A stretch of DNA of 60,341 nucleotides from Phenylobacterium sp. (lineage in GTDB: Bacteria > Pseudomonadota > Alphaproteobacteria > Caulobacterales > Caulobacteraceae), in the NCBI RefSeq assembly GCF_013911965.1, contig NZ_JACESE010000020.1, positions 1-60,341 on the forward strand, in the 5' to 3' direction. The position numbers and the translations under genes were made by a program. Position 1 is the first letter of the stretch. The number at the start of each line of letters is the position of its first letter. Under the pieces are notes generated by a model, which had not been told where the DNA came from, ran no database searches, and saw only the letters and a program-made list of their open reading frames with translations. Positions 283-9,891 of this stretch are shown here, piece by piece.

Positions 283-2040
283 ATGTCTCCAACGCCGCGC
301 GGCCGCCGGACGCGCAATGCGGCGCCGCCTACTGATGAGCAACTGGTCGCTTGGTTCGAAGCCGGCGAGCTGCTCGAGAGGATCGTTCGCTACTTCGACC
401 TGGCCGACTACAGCCAGTTCCGGGACGTAGGCCGCCGGGCCGGCGCGATGGCCGGCAATCAGAAGTTGGATCTGCTGTCGCTGATCGAGAACGGCGACGT
501 CGGTGCGGTCGGAGGGCACGACTTCTTCAACGTCCAGCAGTTCTTCAACGAGGCCATTCCGAGCCTGGACGTTCCGGTTCCGCGCATGCTGGCCGCGGTC
601 GATCAGCTCGTGAAGCTTGGGGGCGAGGACTTGGCGGCCAACCAGCCCAACGGCGCCTTGCGGGAATGGCTGCGCAAAGACCTTGCCCGAGCTGAAGCCG
701 TCATCTTCGCCGCCAACGCCGACGACAGCCAAGCGAAGGCTCAGCTGGTGTTCGCGTTGGAGGCTATCGGCGACCCTCACAGGGTCAGGCCATTCCTGGA
801 ACGGGATGACCCGCTTCTGAGGGCCAGCGCGCTCAGCGCTTTGGCTCGGATGGCCGATCCTGATCTCGACTCGCGGACAGCGTCCGTCGTCGCGATCGGG
901 CAAGCCCTGGGCGCTGGCGAGAACGACATGCTCTGCGCCAATGGCGTTGAAGCACTGATGTCGGTCGCGAGCCCGGAGCCGCCCGTCGAAAACGACTTGG
1001 TGCTGACGTCCTTGAATGCGGCCCTATCCGGCCGCGGCGACGGTACGCTCAATCGCGCTGCACATGTTCTGTGGGCCCACGCGGCCGCAACGCGCCCTGA
1101 AGTCGCAACCGCGCTGTTGCAGGCGTTGCTAGACCTCAATCCCGAGCACAAGGGCACCACCAACGAGCTCGATATGGGCCTGAAGGCTGTGATCGACGCC
1201 GGTCAGGGCGATGCTGCCCTGCAATTCCTGGCAGACCTGCTCGTCAAGAACCAGGGGACGCTTAAAGCCACCGCGTTCAACTCGGTCTGGGACGCGATCC
1301 TCTCGGGGCCATCGGAGCGTCTGAGCGCCTGGATCGTCAGTTGGCTTCTTGCCGCCAAGCCGGCCCTGGGGTTCGCCCTGACCGAGGTGCTGCGGTGCCA
1401 GGAGCGCGATGAGGCCGCTCTGGCTGTGGATCGGCCCGGCCTTCCGAAAACGCCCGTGGAGCTTGGCTATCTCGCACGAAAGGCCGTCGGCTGGTTCATG
1501 TTACAACCGCATCTGGCGACCGGCTTGTTGGTGGCGATCCTGGGGGTGTGCGACCAAGTGACGGCCCGCAACGTGGCGGGGCTTCTGGCGTACCCGATGC
1601 TGCGCAACTATCCGGAGATGCGTGAAACCCTCGCGGATCTGCCCAAGGACGATCCCGCCAAGCCGTGGGTGAACGCTGCGCTGGGTGAGAACGAGCGCTA
1701 TCTCAACGCCCTCAAAGCCATGCCTGCCATCCCGGAACTCACCCCGTCGGATCAGCACCGGCGCATCCAACACCTGCACCACGTCGATCAGATGCAAGCG
1801 GCCCACAAGGCGGCGCGCGCCCAATCGGTGTTCTTCAACCTCGTACGTCACTCGACCTTGCTCTACGGCACCCGGTCCCTGAGCTACGTGGAGGACCTCG
1901 ATGGAGGCCCCCGGCGCCCCATGGAGATGGAGCTCGGCACGCATTCGGTCACGATGACTCTGCCGCGCCTCGACATGCTCGATCCCATCGGTCTGCAGCT
2001 GATGCTGGTCCGTTTCCGCGGAGAGGCGAGGCCGCAATGA
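283..2040 (+). CDS. Uncharacterised alpha-helical (HEAT-like) repeat protein
   Basis: About 585 residues from ATG 283; the frame is open upstream to TTG 73, but the upstream residues look non-native and no Shine-Dalgarno clearly decides the start. I do not recognise a named family. The protein is almost entirely predicted helix; residues about 150-200 (LEAIGDPHRVRPFLERDDP, then ASALSALARMADP) read like HEAT repeats, and the last 70 residues form a more strand-rich tail. There is no signal peptide or membrane segment, so it is probably cytoplasmic. Its stop overlaps the start of the next gene (ATGA at 2037-2040), so the two are almost certainly co-translated partners. Base composition is lower in GC than the flanking genome, which suggests horizontal acquisition. 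A scaffold or sensor role beside a nuclease is an inference only. Confidence 0.75.
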   Translation: MSPTPRGRRTRNAAPPTDEQLVAWFEAGELLERIVRYFDLADYSQFRDVGRRAGAMAGNQKLDLLSLIENGDVGAVGGHDFFNVQQFFNEAIPSLDVPVPRMLAAVDQLVKLGGEDLAANQPNGALREWLRKDLARAEAVIFAANADDSQAKAQLVFALEAIGDPHRVRPFLERDDPLLRASALSALARMADPDLDSRTASVVAIGQALGAGENDMLCANGVEALMSVASPEPPVENDLVLTSLNAALSGRGDGTLNRAAHVLWAHAAATRPEVATALLQALLDLNPEHKGTTNELDMGLKAVIDAGQGDAALQFLADLLVKNQGTLKATAFNSVWDAILSGPSERLSAWIVSWLLAAKPALGFALTEVLRCQERDEAALAVDRPGLPKTPVELGYLARKAVGWFMLQPHLATGLLVAILGVCDQVTARNVAGLLAYPMLRNYPEMRETLADLPKDDPAKPWVNAALGENERYLNALKAMPAIPELTPSDQHRRIQHLHHVDQMQAAHKAARAQSVFFNLVRHSTLLYGTRSLSYVEDLDGGPRRPMEMELGTHSVTMTLPRLDMLDPIGLQLMLVRFRGEARPQ

Positions 2041-3797
2041 GACTGCTGATCGTCGATTACCTAGCCTCGCTGAAAGAACGCGCAGAACTCGACGCCATCC
2101 TGCCCGACCTGCTAACCGAACTCGGCTACAACGTGATCTCGCGCCCCCGCCGGGGCACCCAGCAGCGCGGGGTCGATATCGCCGCGGTCCGCAAGGTCGA
2201 AGGCGAGGAAATCCTCTACCTTTTCTCCCTGAAGGCGGGAAACCTGTCGCGAACCGAGTGGAACGGGCCGCAGGACCAGGCCCTTCGCCCGTCCCTGGAC
2301 GAAATCCGCGACAGTTATCTGCCGAACCGGGTTCCGCCGAAGTACCGCGACGCCAAGGTGGTCATCTGCCTCTGTTTCGGTGGCGAGATTCGCGAGGACA
2401 TCCGCGACGTCGTCGCCGGCTACATGACCAACAACACCACCGCCCGTGTCAGCTATGAGGAGTGGAACGGCGGCCGCATCGCCGACCTGCTGCTGGAAGG
2501 TTTGCTGCGCGAGCAGGTGCTGCCTGAGGCAATGCGGAGCGGATTTCGCAAGGCGGTGGCGCTGGTCGATGAGCCGGACGTCTCCTACCAGCACTTCCGG
2601 AAGGTGGCGAACCAGCTGTTGTCAGCTGGGCGCGCCAACGCCAAGGCGCGGGTCCTGAGCGCCCGCCAGCTCAGCCTGTGCGCTTGGATTCTGTTTGTCT
2701 GGGCCCGCAGCGCTGGCAATGTCGAAGCGGCCTATCGCGCGACAGAGTTGGCGTTGCTCTACGCCTGGGAACTTCGTCGCGGCATCGCCAAGCCCACCTC
2801 CAAGGACGGCAAGGCGCTACTGAACGCCGTTGGCCAGATCGCGGACCTCCACATCAAAGCGGCCGCTGAACTGCTTGAGCGCAAGATTATTCCGGCTGCG
2901 CTGATCGAGGACGGAGTGTCGGCGGCCGTGCGCAGCAGCGACGCCATCGACTTGAACCTCGCGCTCTTCGACATGCTGGGCCGGATCGGCCTTCTGGCGA
3001 TCTGGCTCAAGTTCATGAGTCAGCGGGCCGAGGGCAAGGCCAAAGAGCACTTCGAGGCCCACTGCCTCGCCGTCCTGAAGGCCGGCTATGCGATGATCGA
3101 AAACAACGCGGGGCTTCTGCTGCCTGTGCGCGACGATCAGACGATCGACATCGCCATCTTCCTGCAGGCGGCCTTGGTGACGGGCGCCGATGGCGGGCCA
3201 ATTCGCAATTGGATCGAACACCTCATCGGTCGGCTCAGTTACGCAGTCCGCGCCCGCGCGCGGTACCCTCTGACATCGAGCGACTATCGCGATCTTGTCG
3301 AACATCCGCGTGGCAGGAGCGACGATGAGTTCGAGGAGATGACAAAAGGGTCGATCCTCATCCCTACCCTCGCGCTTTGGGCTAGGCTATTGGGTTTAAC
3401 TGCCGAATTGGCGATGCTGAGCGAGATGGTCGCCAAGGACTTGGGGCATTGCACCATGCAGCTTTGGTCCCCGGACCACACCAGCGAGACGCACCTCTAT
3501 GTAAATGACGCGGCTCATGGCTATGCTATTGCCGACTTGCCTATAGACGGCGACGGTGCCGCACTGTTCGACATTGTGAATAGCGCTGCTGATCGGGTCG
3601 CAGAGCATTTGGACGGGCTGTCGGCCTTCGCGGAGGGGTTCTGGCCGGTCGTTCTGGTGGCCTGTCGACACCATCGGCTACCAGTGCCGCCTGGCTTCTG
3701 GGTCAAGGCACTGGCGATTGCCCCAGAAGCCAACGAGGCGGCGGACGGAACCGCGACTGCGCCTCCCGCCGATGGCTCACGCCCAGTGGGCGGGTAG
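2037..3797 (+). CDS. Protein with N-terminal PD-(D/E)XK nuclease-like domain
   Basis: 586 residues starting in an ATGA overlap with the upstream helical-repeat gene. The first ~110 residues resemble a restriction-endonuclease fold: an acidic helix (E17 in RAELDAILPDLLTELGY), GVDIAA with D47, then a hydrophobic strand ending LFSLKAG with K66. This is the spacing of the D...(E/Q)xK core of Mrr-like nucleases, with Ser at the E/Q position. The remaining ~450 residues are mostly helical and unrecognised. The gene is atypical in composition: two sample lines near 3481-3600 are 55-58% GC, and rare ATA, TTA, CTA and AGG codons appear. The pairing and composition suggest a mobile defence-type cassette. 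Nuclease activity and role are inferred, not shown. Confidence 0.75.
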   Translation: MRLLIVDYLASLKERAELDAILPDLLTELGYNVISRPRRGTQQRGVDIAAVRKVEGEEILYLFSLKAGNLSRTEWNGPQDQALRPSLDEIRDSYLPNRVPPKYRDAKVVICLCFGGEIREDIRDVVAGYMTNNTTARVSYEEWNGGRIADLLLEGLLREQVLPEAMRSGFRKAVALVDEPDVSYQHFRKVANQLLSAGRANAKARVLSARQLSLCAWILFVWARSAGNVEAAYRATELALLYAWELRRGIAKPTSKDGKALLNAVGQIADLHIKAAAELLERKIIPAALIEDGVSAAVRSSDAIDLNLALFDMLGRIGLLAIWLKFMSQRAEGKAKEHFEAHCLAVLKAGYAMIENNAGLLLPVRDDQTIDIAIFLQAALVTGADGGPIRNWIEHLIGRLSYAVRARARYPLTSSDYRDLVEHPRGRSDDEFEEMTKGSILIPTLALWARLLGLTAELAMLSEMVAKDLGHCTMQLWSPDHTSETHLYVNDAAHGYAIADLPIDGDGAALFDIVNSAADRVAEHLDGLSAFAEGFWPVVLVACRHHRLPVPPGFWVKALAIAPEANEAADGTATAPPADGSRPVGG

Positions 3798-3895
3798 CAG
3801 GTCAAGTCATTCGACCATTCCCTGAAGGTACCGTTTTGCAGGGCGGGTGTTGCCGCCACCTCGGCCGCCGCTCCCGGCGACGAGCGCTACGCCCA

Positions 3896-4312
3896 ATGAC
3901 CCTCGAAACCTCCCGCCTCGTCCTCCGCCTCATCCTGGCCGCCGCCTACCTCGCCGCCGGCGTCCTGCACCTCGCCTACCCGGCGCCGTTCCTCGGGATC
4001 ACGCCGGGCTGGGTTCCGTGGCCGCAGGCCGTGATCGCGGCGACGGGGGTGGCGGAGATCGCAGGGGCGGGGGCTCTGGGCGCGGTTCCGCGGCTGCGGC
4101 GGGCGGCGGCGGTGGGGCTGGCCCTCTATGCGGTGTGCGTCTATCCGGCGAACATCAAGCACGCCCTGGACGCGGTGGCGGCCGGCGGCGCCGGGGCGTG
4201 GTGGCCCTATCACGGGCCGCGGCTGGCGTTTCAGCCGGTGATCGTCTGGTGGGCCCTGTTCGCCGGCGGGGTGACGGACTGGCCCTTCGGCCGGCGGGTC
4301 CGCAGGGGCTAG
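3896..4312 (+). CDS. DoxX-like small membrane protein
   Basis: 138 residues from ATG 3896 (an upstream in-frame start at 3836 would add a poor, Arg-rich extension). Four hydrophobic segments are visible, and the first carries the pattern YLAAGVLHLAYPAPFLGITP typical of DoxX-like proteins (small quinone- or redox-associated inner-membrane proteins of uncertain activity). It returns to high GC directly after the atypical two-gene cassette, so the composition boundary lies in the 98 bases before it. It is convergent with the TonB receptor downstream. No operon partner is evident, and the substrate is unknown. Confidence 0.75.
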   Translation: MTLETSRLVLRLILAAAYLAAGVLHLAYPAPFLGITPGWVPWPQAVIAATGVAEIAGAGALGAVPRLRRAAAVGLALYAVCVYPANIKHALDAVAAGGAGAWWPYHGPRLAFQPVIVWWALFAGGVTDWPFGRRVRRG

Positions 4313-4351: not shown

Positions 4352-6481
4352 CTAGAACCGGTAGGTCAGGGACGCCGTGACGTTGCGCGGCGCGCCGTAG
4401 CGGTACTGGCTGAAGTAGCTGATCTGGCTGTAATAGGTCTCGTCGAACAGGTTATCGACATTGACCTGCACGGTGACGGCGTCGGTCACGTCGTAGCGGG
4501 CCATCAGATTGACCAGGGCGAAGGCGTCCTGCTCGATCCGCTCCTGCGCCCCGCTCACCGGATTGGCGGCCAGGGAATAGATGGTGTCGCGCCAGGTGAC
4601 CCCGCCGCCGAGGCTCAGGCCCTCCAGCGGGCCTTCGAACCGGTAGGTGGTGAAGAGGGCGAAGCTCTTGCGCGGCTGGTCGGTGTTGACCTCCGCCCCC
4701 GTGGCGTCCTCGACCTCGAACTGGGCGTAGCTGGCGCTCAGGTCCCAGTTGGGCCGCAGGCGGCCGACGAGTTCGACCTCGAAGCCGGCGCTCTCGGCGC
4801 CGTCGGCCGGGGCGTAGGCCTGCTCGGGCGGGGTGGAGCCGGGCACCATCTGGCCGGTGGCCTGGCCGACGCCGTCCTGCTGGATCTTGAAGACGGCCAC
4901 CGTCGACTGCAGGGCGTCGTTCAGATAGGCGCTCTTCAGCCCGATCTCATAGGCCTTGCCGGTGATCGGCTCGAGCACCTGGGCGTTGATGTCGCGCAGG
5001 TTCTGCGGCTGGAAGATCTCGGTGTAGCTGCCGTAGAGGCGGTGCGACGGGGTCAGGTCGTAGAGCACCCCGAAATAGGGGATGGTGACGTCGTCGGCCT
5101 TGTAGTTGTCGGGCGCGCCGCCGTTGATCCCGCTGCGTTCCCAGCTCGAGAGGCGCACGCCGCCGATCACCTTCAGCGCGTCGGTGAGGTTGAGCCGGGT
5201 GGCCGCGAAGACGCCGGTCTGCTCGGTCTCGTTGTCGGTGTAGAGCGTCGGCGTGGTGGCGAAGTCCGGCTTCGGGAAGTTTCCGTCGAAGGCGTAGAGG
5301 CTGGTCAGCGGCAGGAAGGCGTTGGGGCCGCCGGCGGCGAAGTTGACGACGTCGGACTCCTGCTTGCTGTGCAGGGCGCCCAGGGTGAACTCGTGCGCGC
5401 GGCCGAACAGCGGGAAGTCGCCGTGCAGCTGGACGTCGAAGCTGTCCTGCGTCGTCTCGCCGACGCTCTTGTAGGGCCAGGTCGCCGCGCCCGCCCCGGT
5501 GGCGCGGTCGATCGCGCCATAGACGTAGAAGAGCTGGGAATCCTGCTCGTTGATCAGGCGGTTGTAGTTGAACGAGACGTTCCAGCCGTTGGCGAAGGTG
5601 TGCGCCAGATTGGCGAAATAGTTGGTGTTGGTCGTGTCCCAATAGGCCCAGTCGGCGGCCGTGTTGGTCGAGACCGGCAGGTCGGTGCGGCCGCCGTCGG
5701 TGTAGAAGGTCGGCAGCGCGCCCCAGAAGGCGGCGTTCGGCGCCGTGTCCTGCCGGCTGGCGCCGACGCGCAGCAGGGTGGACTCGGTCAGGTCGGCCTC
5801 GGCGACGCCGTAGAAGACGTGCTTTTCGGTGTTCTGCCGGTCGAAATAGGTGTCGCGGTTCTCGTACTTGGCGACCAGACGGCCGCGGATCGCGCCGCCG
5901 TTCGCCGCGCCGGACACGTCGGCCTCGATCAGGCGCTTGTCCCAGCTGCCCAGGGCCGCCGTCAGGGCGCCCTGGAAGTCGCGGGCGTCGGCGTGCTTGC
6001 GCACCAGATTGATGGAGGCGGACGGGTCGCCGGCGCCGGTCAGCAGGCCGGTGGCGCCGCGCACGATCTCCACGCGCTCATAGATGGACATGTCGACGAT
6101 CGTCTCGCCGGAATCCCCGGCCAGGCTCCAGGACAGGGGAACGCTGTCGATCTGGTAGTTCTTGATCTCGAAACCGCGCGCATTGAAGACGTTGCGCACG
6201 TCGTCGACCTCGACCACCGAGACGCCGGCGGTGTTGCGCACGACATCGGCGATGGTCGTCAGGTTCTGGTCCCGGATCCGCTGCTGGGTGATGACGGTCA
6301 CCGACTGCGGCGTCTCCCGGACCGACAGGCCAAGCCCGGTCGCGGTGTCGATCTCCTCGTCGACCGTATAGCGGCCCGTGACCACGACGCCCTGGACGGT
6401 GGTGTCGGTCTGGGCGTTCGCCACGCCCGCAAAGCCCAGGAGCGCGACGCCCGCGAGCAAGCTCAGTTTGAAGTTCATCAT
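4352..6481 (-). CDS. TonB-dependent siderophore receptor
   Basis: Outer-membrane beta-barrel that imports a ferric siderophore using energy from TonB/ExbBD. About 709 residues. Two adjacent ATG codons (6481 and 6478) follow GGAGGGG; the second is better spaced. Residues 1-23 form a signal peptide ending ANAQ. The plug domain lies at about 50-165 with ETPQSVTVITQQRI, DVVRNTAGVSV and the RGFEI motif, typical of the FhuE/FpvA-type ferrisiderophore family. The barrel follows and ends in the outer-membrane sorting signal YRF. The frame is open upstream to 7087, but that part runs antisense to dapB and is not real. A perfect Fur-like palindrome 43-57 bases upstream indicates iron repression. The exact siderophore cannot be told. 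Confidence 0.93.
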   Translation of the reverse strand: MMNFKLSLLAGVALLGFAGVANAQTDTTVQGVVVTGRYTVDEEIDTATGLGLSVRETPQSVTVITQQRIRDQNLTTIADVVRNTAGVSVVEVDDVRNVFNARGFEIKNYQIDSVPLSWSLAGDSGETIVDMSIYERVEIVRGATGLLTGAGDPSASINLVRKHADARDFQGALTAALGSWDKRLIEADVSGAANGGAIRGRLVAKYENRDTYFDRQNTEKHVFYGVAEADLTESTLLRVGASRQDTAPNAAFWGALPTFYTDGGRTDLPVSTNTAADWAYWDTTNTNYFANLAHTFANGWNVSFNYNRLINEQDSQLFYVYGAIDRATGAGAATWPYKSVGETTQDSFDVQLHGDFPLFGRAHEFTLGALHSKQESDVVNFAAGGPNAFLPLTSLYAFDGNFPKPDFATTPTLYTDNETEQTGVFAATRLNLTDALKVIGGVRLSSWERSGINGGAPDNYKADDVTIPYFGVLYDLTPSHRLYGSYTEIFQPQNLRDINAQVLEPITGKAYEIGLKSAYLNDALQSTVAVFKIQQDGVGQATGQMVPGSTPPEQAYAPADGAESAGFEVELVGRLRPNWDLSASYAQFEVEDATGAEVNTDQPRKSFALFTTYRFEGPLEGLSLGGGVTWRDTIYSLAANPVSGAQERIEQDAFALVNLMARYDVTDAVTVQVNVDNLFDETYYSQISYFSQYRYGAPRNVTASLTYRF

Positions 6482-6523
6482 ATCCCCTCCGGCGAGCCTG
6501 ACGCCCGCCGCGTCGATCGCGCA

Positions 6524-6538
6524 TGCGAATAATTCGCA
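6524..6538. promoter_or_regulatory. Fur-like operator
   Basis: Perfect 15-bp palindrome: arms TGCGAAT and ATTCGCA around a central A. TGC-N9-GCA palindromes of this shape are the alphaproteobacterial Fur/Mur-type iron box. It sits 43 bases upstream of the siderophore receptor start, in the divergent region shared with dapB (194 bases away from that start), so the receptor is the likely target. Confidence 0.7.
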
Positions 6539-6719
6539 GTAACAAGCCTCGCCGGCCCCGACAAGCGCCGATGGCCGCCGAGCCGCCGCTGTCGTCGAGC
6601 GCGACTTTGGCGCCACAGTCCGTACACGGTGCGGACGCGCCGCGACGGGCCCCCCGCAGGCCTTTCGCTTGACCTCGCTCGGCGGCGCGCGACATTCCAG
6701 GTCGGTGTCCAGCTCGCCC

Positions 6720-6734
6720 GGGAGATCCGCCCTG
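6720..6734 (+). promoter_or_regulatory. Shine-Dalgarno and CTG start of dapB
   Basis: GGGAG at 6720-6724, then seven bases, then CTG at 6732-6734. The residues after this CTG ([17 protein letters not shown]) are where the DapB Rossmann fold normally begins. No ATG occurs nearby in frame, and the alternatives are GTG 6705 and TTG 6669, both with poor ribosome binding sites. Confidence 0.5.
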
Positions 6735-7511
6735 ACCGCCCCCATCCGCATCGCCGTCGCCGGCGCCCTGGGCCGCATGGGCCGGGCCGTCGCCGCCGCC
6801 GTGGACCTTCGCGACGACTGCGAGGTCTTCGCCCGCTTCGACCGTCCCGGCGCCGAAGGGGAGGGCGTGGTCGAGCGCGACCAGGCGCTCGCCGCCGCCC
6901 AGGCGGTCATCGACTTCTCGACGCCGGCGGCCTCCGCCGACCTGGCGCGGGCCTGCGCGGCCCGCGGCGAGGTGGCGCTGGTCATCGGCTCCACCGGCTT
7001 CGACGAGGACCAGATCGCCGCCATCGACGCGGCGGCGAAGACCATCCCCATCGTGCGGGCCGGCAACTTCTCGCTGGGCGTCAACATGCTGCTCGGCCTC
7101 GTCGAGCAGGCGGCGCGCGCCCTGCCGGCGGCCGACTACGACATCGAGGTCGTGGAGGCCCACCACCGCCGCAAGGTGGACGCCCCCTCCGGCACCGCCC
7201 TGATGCTCGGCGAGGCCGCGGCCCGCGGGCGGGGCGTGGCCCTGGCGGAGGTGGCCCGGCGCGTGCGCGACGGGATCACCGGCGAGCGGCCGGCCGGGGA
7301 GATCGGCTTCTCCGTCCAGCGCGGCGGCGGCATCATCGGCGAGCATTCGGTGCTCTTCGCGGCGCAGGACGAGATCCTGACCCTGTCGCACTCGGCCCGC
7401 GACCGCGGCCTCTTCGCCCGCGGGGCGGTGGAGGCGGCGCTCTGGGCCGTGCGCCAGCCGCCCGGCGCCTACGACATGGTCGACGTGCTGGGTCTGAGGA
7501 GCCGCCGATGA
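6732..7511 (+). CDS. dapB: 4-hydroxy-tetrahydrodipicolinate reductase
   Basis: Reduces hydroxy-tetrahydrodipicolinate with NAD(P)H in the diaminopimelate/lysine pathway; cytoplasmic tetramer. About 259 residues if it starts at CTG 6732, the usual family length. The nucleotide-binding loop GALGRMGR is at the N-terminus. The dinucleotide-domain motif VIGSTGF, then NFSLGVNML, and the substrate/catalytic signature [15 protein letters not shown] are all intact. The amidase gene overlaps its stop (ATGA 7508-7511), so the two are cotranscribed. The upstream 250-base gap is shared divergently with the TonB receptor. Identity is certain; only the start codon is debatable (GTG 6705 or TTG 6669 would add 9 or 21 residues). 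Confidence 0.95.
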
Positions 7512-8959
7512 GCCCCGATCTCGACCTGCTCGATCTCGACGCCAGCGGCCAGCTCACCCTCCTGGCCGCGCGCCGGGTGAGCGCGGTCGAGCTCCTGAAG
7601 ATGGCCCTCGCCCGCCACGAGCAGACGCACAAGACCCTGAACGCCGTCGTCGCCGCCGACCTGGAGCGGGCCCTGGAACGGGCCAGGGCGATCGACGACC
7701 ACCGGGCCAACGACGTCCAGCTGGGGCCGCTGGCCGGCCTGCCCATGACCGTCAAGGACACGCTCGACGTCATCGGCATGCCGGCCTCGGCCGGGCTGGA
7801 GGCGTTCCGCCGCCGCAAGGCCGAGGACGCCACCGTGGTCGGCCACGCCCGCCGGGCCGGAGCGGTCGTCTGGGGCAAGACCAATGTCCCGGTCATGGCC
7901 GGCGACTGGCAGAGCTTCAACGCGCTCTACGGGACGACGAACAATCCTTGGGACCCGACGCGGACGCCGGGCGGATCGTCGGGCGGGGCGGCGGCGGCCC
8001 TGGCCGCCCGGGTCACGCCGCTGGAGATCGGCTCCGACATCGGCGGCTCCCTGCGCGTGCCGGCCCACTTCTGCGGCGTCTTCTCGCACAAGCCGACCTG
8101 GGGCCTCGTGCCCCAGCATGGCCATGTGCCGCCCAAGCCGGGCTCATGGCAGGAGCCGGACCTCAATGTGGTGGGGCCGATGGCGCGCTCGGCGCGGGAC
8201 CTGCGTCTGCTGCTGTCGGTGATCTGCGATGGGGGCGTCTCCCCCAAGGCGCCGCCCGCCGACCTGGCCAAGGTGAAGATCGGCCTGTGGCTGGAGGCGC
8301 CGGGCCTGCCCCTCGATCCGCAGGTGCGCCGGGTCATCGAGGCCTTCGCCGGCGAGCTCGCCGCCGCCGGGGCGACCGTGGAGGCGGTTTCCCCGCCGGT
8401 GGACGTGGAGACCCTGCTCGAGGCCTATATGGTGCTGCTGGGTTCGATCATCGGCGCCGACATGCCCGAGAAGGAGCTGCGCCGCCTGGAGCTGCTGCGG
8501 GGGCCCGCCAGGATGGCCAAGGCGGCCGGGGCCGATCCCTTCTCCTGGGCGACCACGGCGCTGGCCTACACCGCCCGCCATCGCGAATGGCTGGCCGCCG
8601 ACGCCGTGCGCGCCCGCCTGCGCCAGGAGATGGAGGGCGCGCTGGGCGGGTTCGACGCCATTCTCGCCCCCGTCGCCCCCGTGACCGCCTTTCCGCACGA
8701 CCACAAGGGCTTCGCCGCCCGAAAGCTGACCCTCTCCACCGGCGAGACGGTTCCCTACGTCACCATGCTGGGCTGGATCGCGCTCGCCACCGCCTGCCTG
8801 CTGCCGGTGACCACCGTGCCGGCCGGCGCCGCGGCCGACGGCCTGCCGGTGGGCGTCCAGCTCATCGGCCCGCACGGGGGCGACGCCCGCCTGCTGAGCC
8901 TGGCCCAGGCGATCGACGAGAACGTCCGCGGCTTTTCGGCGCCGGAGCTGAAGGCCTAG
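7508..8959 (+). CDS. Amidase (amidase-signature family)
   Basis: 483 residues, beginning in the ATGA overlap with dapB. The amidase-signature Ser-cisSer-Lys triad is visible: Lys83 (TVKDT), the GGSSGG loop (cis-Ser at 157/158) and nucleophile Ser181 in [11 protein letters not shown]. Such enzymes hydrolyse C-N amide bonds of small amides or peptidyl amides; the true substrate cannot be inferred. It lacks the gatB/gatC context and GatA-specific sequence, so it is a general amidase and not the tRNA amidotransferase. No signal peptide is seen. Its TAG stop shares the bases CTAG (8956-8959) with the stop of the convergent thioesterase-like gene. Confidence 0.92.
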
Positions 8960-9891
8960 AGGGACATCTCCCGGACCGTCGTCGCCTGCAGGGCCGCCAC
9001 GGCCTCGGGCGACAGCTTGACCACCTTGCGGGCGTCCAGGTCGAAGCCGACCGCGACGTTCTCGGCGCTGCCCCAGGCCCGGCCGGTGGCTGGGTCGATG
9101 AACCAGTGGCGCAGCAGGCGGTAGCGCTCTTCCACATGGGCGGTGGCCGAGCGCAGCTCGAAGCGGTCGCCGGCGCGCGGCCAGCCGAAATGGACGAGGC
9201 GGTATTCCAGCGCCGCCCCGCCGATGCGTGGGCCCTGTTCGCCCTCGCCGTTCGAGAGCCCGCGGTCGGCGCCGAGCAGATGGAGAATGCCGTCGGAAAT
9301 CCTGCCCATGAAGATCTCCGGCCGCATACGGCCGAAGGCGTCCACATCGGGCGCCCCGATCATGCCGAGGCCGATACGCTTCAGGCCGAGCCGCTCGGCC
9401 TCGGCGGCCCCGGCCGCGGTCGCCGTCACGGGGTCCAGCCGTATGGACCGCGGCGCGGCGAAGTCCGGCGGATCGATCCTCAGCGTCTCGGCGGCGGCCA
9501 GGATGCGGCGCGGCCAGGGGAAGACCACCGACCCGTCGGCGGTGGCGTGGCGCACCACGGTGCGGAAGGTCGCCGCCGGCGTTCCGTCCGGATGCTGGAT
9601 GACGATGAGCAGGACGGCGTCGGCCTCGCCCATGGCCAGCACGCCGCCGCGGGCCGACAGCGCCGCGCCGGGCTTGGCTTCGCGCAGGAACCGGATGTGC
9701 TGCTCGCGGACCAGCAGGGTCGACTTGGCCTGGGCGGCGAAGGCGCCTTCCATGCCGAGCGCGGCGGCCAGCCCGCCCAGGGCCTCGATCGACTTGGCCA
9801 CCCAGTGGCGCACGTTGAGATGGCCCATCTCATCGCACTCCCAGGTGTTGACCCCGCCGACCCAGACCTCGATGCCGTCTCGCCAGACCAT
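8956..9891 (-). CDS. Acyl-CoA thioesterase-like double-hotdog protein
   Basis: 311 residues from ATG 9891, preceded by GGGAGGG. Near the N-terminus the pattern DEMGHLNVRHW is the 4-hydroxybenzoyl-CoA/acyl-CoA thioesterase signature (catalytic Asp, then G-H-x-N). A second hotdog-like half follows (HFGWPRAGDRF, VEERYRLLRHWFIDP, WGSAENVAVGFDLDARK). Presumed role: hydrolysis of acyl-CoA in the cytoplasm. The frame is open upstream to 10299, but that extension crosses a separate small gene and is not native. The gene is monocistronic or follows the small gene at 9978. Substrate unknown. Confidence 0.82.
   Translation of the reverse strand: MVWRDGIEVWVGGVNTWECDEMGHLNVRHWVAKSIEALGGLAAALGMEGAFAAQAKSTLLVREQHIRFLREAKPGAALSARGGVLAMGEADAVLLIVIQHPDGTPAATFRTVVRHATADGSVVFPWPRRILAAAETLRIDPPDFAAPRSIRLDPVTATAAGAAEAERLGLKRIGLGMIGAPDVDAFGRMRPEIFMGRISDGILHLLGADRGLSNGEGEQGPRIGGAALEYRLVHFGWPRAGDRFELRSATAHVEERYRLLRHWFIDPATGRAWGSAENVAVGFDLDARKVVKLSPEAVAALQATTVREMSL

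Follow-up and report, generated by a model that had tools for sequence, protein, structure and literature searches.

An Olokun anti-phage system on a Phenylobacterium chromosome with a predicted Mrr-like domain in OloB

A stretch of DNA of 60,341 nucleotides from Phenylobacterium sp. (NCBI RefSeq assembly GCF_013911965.1, contig NZ_JACESE010000020.1, positions 1 to 60,341 of the forward strand), termed the window, contains near its start two large genes that were identified as oloA and oloB of the Olokun anti-phage system. Both genes are on the + strand. The first, oloA (positions 283 to 2040), encodes 585 amino acids from an ATG and was assigned on the basis of PADLOC model PDLC03925, HEAT-like profile matches and regional conservation; the second, oloB (positions 2037 to 3797), encodes 586 amino acids and was assigned with PADLOC model PDLC03926 and an AlphaFold2 model. 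An earlier sequence-only reading of this DNA had described two co-oriented genes joined by ATGA, and this stop/start overlap is present at positions 2037 to 2040 of the + strand, an arrangement that would imply translational coupling of oloA and oloB. The first gene has an alternative upstream start, an in-frame TTG at position 73. Similarity to the rest of the family begins about 10 residues past the ATG at position 283, and hence this ATG is the likely start of the gene. These genes are not chance open reading frames (ORFs), as long relatives of each protein occur in several genera.

Scans of the two proteins with hmmscan detected matches to the Olokun models over most of their lengths, with E values of 9.5e-81 for OloA (residues 26-584 on positions 19-595 of a 596-position profile) and 2.6e-181 for OloB (residues 1-557 on positions 1-552 of 556). 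Matches to these two models and the adjacent, same-strand order of oloA then oloB are features of Olokun, and all of them were found here. Pfam and NCBIfam scans of both proteins yielded nothing over the curated cut-offs, with weak rows below them (HEAT_2, E = 0.023; SctY chaperone, E = 0.0026), and a PHROGs scan of both proteins produced zero matches. From these sequence matches, the pair is almost certainly an Olokun system. The sequence-only reading had proposed a candidate defense system, an assignment that agrees with the matches of both genes to models of a named anti-phage system. It had also taken the system to be undescribed, with neither protein matching a system that it could name; this part was rejected, as PADLOC names both proteins (OloA and OloB). 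The locus is a chromosomal Olokun anti-phage system and, in other respects, one more unremarkable copy of a system already known. Both proteins have near-full-length model matches and the genes have the order and adjacency of Olokun, while the difference, as far as seen in a comparison made via the PADLOC models and not with the founding locus, was one of sequence divergence only.

The PADLOC OloB model also gave 170 bits to an unrelated-looking protein of another genome (G090; L011, positions 1501 to 2814, − strand), in which an OloB profile built here detected nothing and for which pairwise scores were negligible. The PADLOC model may hold a second family, and calls made by that model alone, therefore, need care.

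The founding paper for Olokun is reportedly that of Millman et al. from 2022. None of the literature titles among the matches listed dealt with how Olokun works or with OloB containing a nuclease domain, although the founding paper may say more. Olokun is named in print as a defense system (PMC10121019, PMC12629846, PMC12592470, PMC12926258) and is listed as uncharacterized in two recent papers (PMC12926258, PMC12592470).

A set of 28 full-length OloB loci was assembled, with Burkholderia OloB pieces being excluded. An OloA-like gene was located directly upstream of OloB in 27 of these loci; 22 of the upstream OloA proteins were long, three were short (300 amino acids; two Klebsiella plasmids and one other genome), one had an in-frame stop and one was truncated, with its contig ending about 240 bases away. 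A single in-frame stop interrupts OloA of locus L042 (positions 285 to 2021) close to where the C-terminal module described below begins. In the 28th locus, from Tolypothrix, insertion sequence (IS) transposase genes separated the OloA-like gene from OloB. An OloA gene was directly upstream on all six of the contigs found in IMG/VR, two of which scored identically and may share one source. Both of the matching Escherichia coli genomes had a 300-amino-acid gene directly upstream of OloB, the PADLOC OloA model having been run on one of them. Pairwise distances for OloA and OloB were correlated (r = 0.907 for 28 pairs, with 0 of 2,000 permutations as high and with host phylogeny uncontrolled). 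This analysis utilized pairs with both proteins longer than 480 amino acids and left out five loci with a short, split or truncated OloA, as well as L052, which scored as L050. OloA and OloB exhibited conserved pairing and co-inheritance, and the co-occurrence that the sequence-only reading had proposed to look for in other genomes was found, with the pair traveling together even where an IS had intervened.

A profile of 20 OloA sequences was compared with solved structures and matched alphaRep HEAT-like chains (best E value of 2e-10, profile positions 123-223). OloA has HEAT-like helical repeats in its N-terminal part, as had been read from the letters alone. Residues 1 to 400 of OloA were the least conserved of the pair (mean pairwise identity of 0.20-0.21), while residues 480 to 585 were the best conserved part of OloA (0.31) and fall within a better-conserved C-terminal module of approximately residues 450 to 585. 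Short OloA forms aligned to the C-terminal part of the model (profile positions 313-589, 360-589, 415-586 and 339-589 for four proteins). The retention of this part next to OloB in the short forms suggests a docking role on OloB for the C-terminal module.

Other genes were detected beside shortened OloA genes. On the Burkholderia ubonensis plasmid pMSMB2035 (L025, positions 5979 to 9080), genes for a cyclase and a 2TM effector directly precede a 141-amino-acid fragment of the C-terminal part of OloA and an OloB that is disrupted by an IS3 element. A CBASS-Olokun hybrid, with the cyclase replacing the OloA sensor, was considered for this locus and rejected, as the 2TM protein matches its own CBASS effector model and OloB is broken; the locus is now read as a CBASS operon that landed in a decaying Olokun locus and provides no evidence for modularity of Olokun. 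On an E. coli chromosome (L055, positions 4865 to 9698), a BovA gene (Borvo, CHAT domain) is situated 110 bases before the short OloA-OloB pair, and a gene annotated as CHAT-domain occupies the equivalent place in L056.

The N-terminal domain of OloB (approximately residues 1 to 165; positions 2037 to 2531, + strand) was assigned an Mrr_cat-like PD-(D/E)XK fold from hhalign comparison, invariant residues and the order of secondary-structure elements. Within OloB, conservation is highest in this domain, with a mean pairwise identity of 0.50 versus 0.30-0.36 elsewhere in the protein. The GVDI...LFSLKAG core, from which the sequence-only reading had guessed at a nuclease, was confirmed, with D47 and K66 both being invariant in 28 of 28 OloB rows, as were E14, D19, P23, L26, G40, G45, G68, R72, G116 and W143. 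An hhalign comparison of OloB residues 17-152 with positions 8-118 of Mrr_cat, represented by domains from 20 loci of the class, gave a score of 41.0, a probability of 89% and an E value of 2.2e-6, which refers to that single comparison, Mrr_cat being the sole nuclease family that was profile-compared. Scores were no higher than 20.2 for 100 column shuffles, and a second control set, of eight shuffles plus a reversed alignment, stayed at or below 16.1. When eight slices of OloB and seven of OloA were compared, the domain slice scored 38.9, an overlapping slice 25.6 and the others 14.2 or less. In the alignment, D47 and K66 are paired with the Asp and Lys of Mrr, respectively, and D19 with the Glu of its first helix; D19, D47 and K66 are, on this alignment, candidate active-site residues.

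An AlphaFold2 model of OloB was generated from an 8-row alignment and had a mean pLDDT of 81.6 and a pTM of 0.74. The model starts with helices at residues 2-14 and 18-28, strands at 32-35, 48-54 and 57-66 and a short helix at 72-75, continues with a helix at 83-98, a strand at 107-114, a helix at 120-133, a strand at 138-143 and a helix at 145-161, and then contains helices to residue 571 with two short strands. This order (helix-helix-strand-strand-strand-helix-strand-helix-strand-helix) matches that expected of a restriction-fold core with a helical arm after it. The core alpha-beta-beta-beta-alpha-beta order was found in residues 18 to 143, no superposition on a solved nuclease being obtained; D47 is located just before strand 48-54 and K66 at the end of strand 57-66. 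The C-terminal arm (approximately residues 166 to 561; positions 2532 to 3719, + strand) is, from AlphaFold2 and Foldseek, nearly all helical apart from the two short strands, and residues 561 to 586 had low model confidence. These analyses showed an OloB composed of an Mrr_cat-like restriction-fold domain and a helical arm, with the Mrr-like fold of the N-terminal domain being highly probable. OloB has in common with Mrr_cat (PF04471) a whole-domain profile alignment and the positions of the Asp and Lys, but has S, T, C, V, L or I where the Mrr_cat rows have Q or E two residues before the Lys, has no Pfam model match and adds a large helical arm after the domain. Of the hallmarks of the PD-(D/E)XK group, the conserved Asp and Lys and the profile homology were, hence, present, while a D, E or Q two residues before the Lys was absent.

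Mrr_cat is a domain of Type IV enzymes. The resemblance of the OloB domain to this family could indicate that OloB is a stand-alone Type IV-like restriction enzyme recognizing modified phage DNA and that OloA is only a scaffold. This explanation is improbable, as OloA is found beside OloB in all but one of the 28 loci and the two proteins vary together, and as the other 400 residues of OloB are nearly all helical without a Pfam match to a reader domain.

Several points weigh against an active OloB nuclease within Olokun, in addition to the possible second family in the PADLOC model, the uncontrolled host phylogeny and the restriction of the profile comparison to Mrr_cat. None of the 28 rows, read by eye, has an acid at the corresponding position of the (D/E)xK motif (S64 in OloB of the window), which is occupied by S, T, C, V, L or I, and the standard two-metal site is incomplete due to this replacement. 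Model confidence was moderate for residues 1 to 160 of OloB (block means of 50 to 87). In a Foldseek search with the whole OloB model, 0 of 615 matches had an E value of ≤0.001, and the 50 rows listed contained no nuclease but helical proteins (such as designed repeats, LGN TPR and 14-3-3); the helical arm dominates such a whole-model search, the outcome of which speaks neither for nor against a nuclease fold. Pfam searches with the 28 OloB members detected six families at an E value of ≤1, and a search of solved structures with the OloB profile detected three chains at an E value of ≤10, with none being a nuclease in either case.

The non-acidic residue in every row is what would be expected if OloB keeps an Mrr-like fold having lost catalysis, binding DNA or a phage product and mediating defense by another step, such as a replication block or sequestration of a host factor. 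The invariance of D19, D47, K66, G45 and G68 in rows with identities down to 24% to OloB of the window is, however, hard to explain without catalysis, and the presence of Q or E in the Mrr_cat rows indicates that an acid is not always needed; loss of catalysis is, hence, considered unlikely but a serious alternative. Active cutting of DNA by OloB is, from its sequence, somewhat favored, with the doubt being mainly due to the missing motif acid. The earlier guess of a nuclease was, in consequence, upheld as to the profile match, the invariant Asp and Lys and the expected order of elements but weakened, as to activity, by the replaced acid and the fold search.

Genome samples from the phylum, class and family, as well as plasmids and phages, were searched for OloB with the PADLOC model. 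In the phylum sample, 9 of 398 genomes were matched, or 7 of 398 after G090, for the reasons given above, and G234 were dropped. The class sample had matches in 5 of 385 genomes, or 4 of 385 after G901 was dropped, and the family sample in 5 of 299; G234 and G901 were removed as partial matches (34.6 and 18.5 bits, respectively). The genome containing the window was common to all three samples, and G256 was common to the phylum and family samples. Within the family sample, this genome was the sole OloB match in its genus. Only 2 of 5,426 E. coli genomes searched had a match. OloB relatives were present on 34 of 72,556 plasmid records, and a tblastn search with OloA found 12 plasmid records, whose accessions were all among the OloB rows listed. 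No match to the OloB model was detected in 50,697 phage records. The plasmid relatives could be taken as a sign that the pair has a housekeeping or plasmid-maintenance function and not one in defense. Such a role is very improbable in view of the sporadic distribution in the three samples, the isolated occurrence within the genus and the other defense genes that neighbor several of the loci, as judged by inspection of the neighborhoods.

The flanks of the pair were compared within the same genome, based on the DapB and MaeB proteins and blastn. The names maeB, dapB, TonB receptor and amidase are putative assignments made by eye. The left flank (positions 1 to 118, no strand assigned) is a copy, at 97%, of sequence immediately upstream of a gene on contig C17 that resembles maeB. 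The right flank contains a DoxX-like gene (positions 3896 to 4312, + strand; Pfam DoxX_2, E value of 1e-5, 26.0 bits versus a cut-off of 26.3), the 5′ part of which (window positions 3886 to 4046) is repeated on C17 beside another islet (90% over 161 bases by blastn). This islet (L071, from C17, positions 368 to 3937) consists of SIR2 and HerA genes (PADLOC E values of 6.4e-227 and 0, respectively) located between copies of the flanks of the Olokun islet. The genome, therefore, contains two different two-gene defense islets of about 3.7 kb each. The description of the pair as a small islet was supported in part: the flanks point to an insertion site, but the window starts at its contig end and the upstream side of oloA lies beyond it.

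The maeB and dapB genes of this genome are on different contigs, C17 and C13, respectively. Their arrangement was inspected in 28 other genomes of the genus, comprising 8 of the 11 top maeB matches and 20 whose contigs offered enough space; in every one, the two genes face each other, with 159 to 5,634 bases between the matches. A maeB match was present in 97 of 101 genomes, including the genome containing the window. As relatives keep maeB facing dapB, the Olokun and SIR2-HerA islets are most likely both located within a single maeB-dapB interval. A family scan of 10 ORFs from seven of the relatives' intervals detected Shedu SduA (G531, L079), an AbiJ_NTD3/Abi_C protein (G527, L074), a SIR2-like protein under the cut-off with an antidote-like gene (G446, L076) and a Phd/YefM antitoxin (G311, L077). 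Seven of the 28 intervals were nearly empty (270 bases or less), and the remaining cargo appeared, by eye, to consist of ordinary metabolic or regulatory genes. The maeB-dapB interval is a variable insertion site in the genus (L074-L081 and L107-L126) with other defense genes.

These observations are consistent with a mechanism in which OloA and OloB would be made together from the overlapping genes and form a complex, in which the OloA C-terminal module, which the short variants retain, would dock on OloB. The fast-changing OloA solenoid would sense an infection signal, either a phage protein or a nucleic-acid structure, and OloA would restrain OloB until this signal arrives. The released OloB would then cut DNA via D47 and K66 together with D19, located on the first helices, and this cutting would destroy the phage DNA or the DNA of the infected cell. 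We lean towards this chain as a whole, from identity as Olokun and complex formation through sensing and restraint by OloA to cutting by OloB, while recognizing a substantial chance that one of the steps is wrong. An effector nuclease held back by a partner would resemble, by analogy only, two-gene nuclease plus sensor systems such as Hachiman HamA/HamB; OloA is a HEAT-like solenoid and not a helicase.

A more tentative proposal, with the balance slightly against it, is that Olokun is modular, with a conserved Mrr-like OloB of atypical active site being controlled via a small OloA C-terminal docking module that carries varied or shortened sensing parts. A second subtype with its own trigger would then be represented by the 300-amino-acid OloA found on Klebsiella plasmids and in E. 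coli chromosomes.

The Mrr-like assignment for OloB, the short-OloA variant and the variable maeB-dapB site with its defense genes are added here to what is known of Olokun. The effector assignment with D19, D47 and K66, together with the probable docking module of OloA and the short-OloA variant, makes this poorly characterized system open to simple mutant tests.

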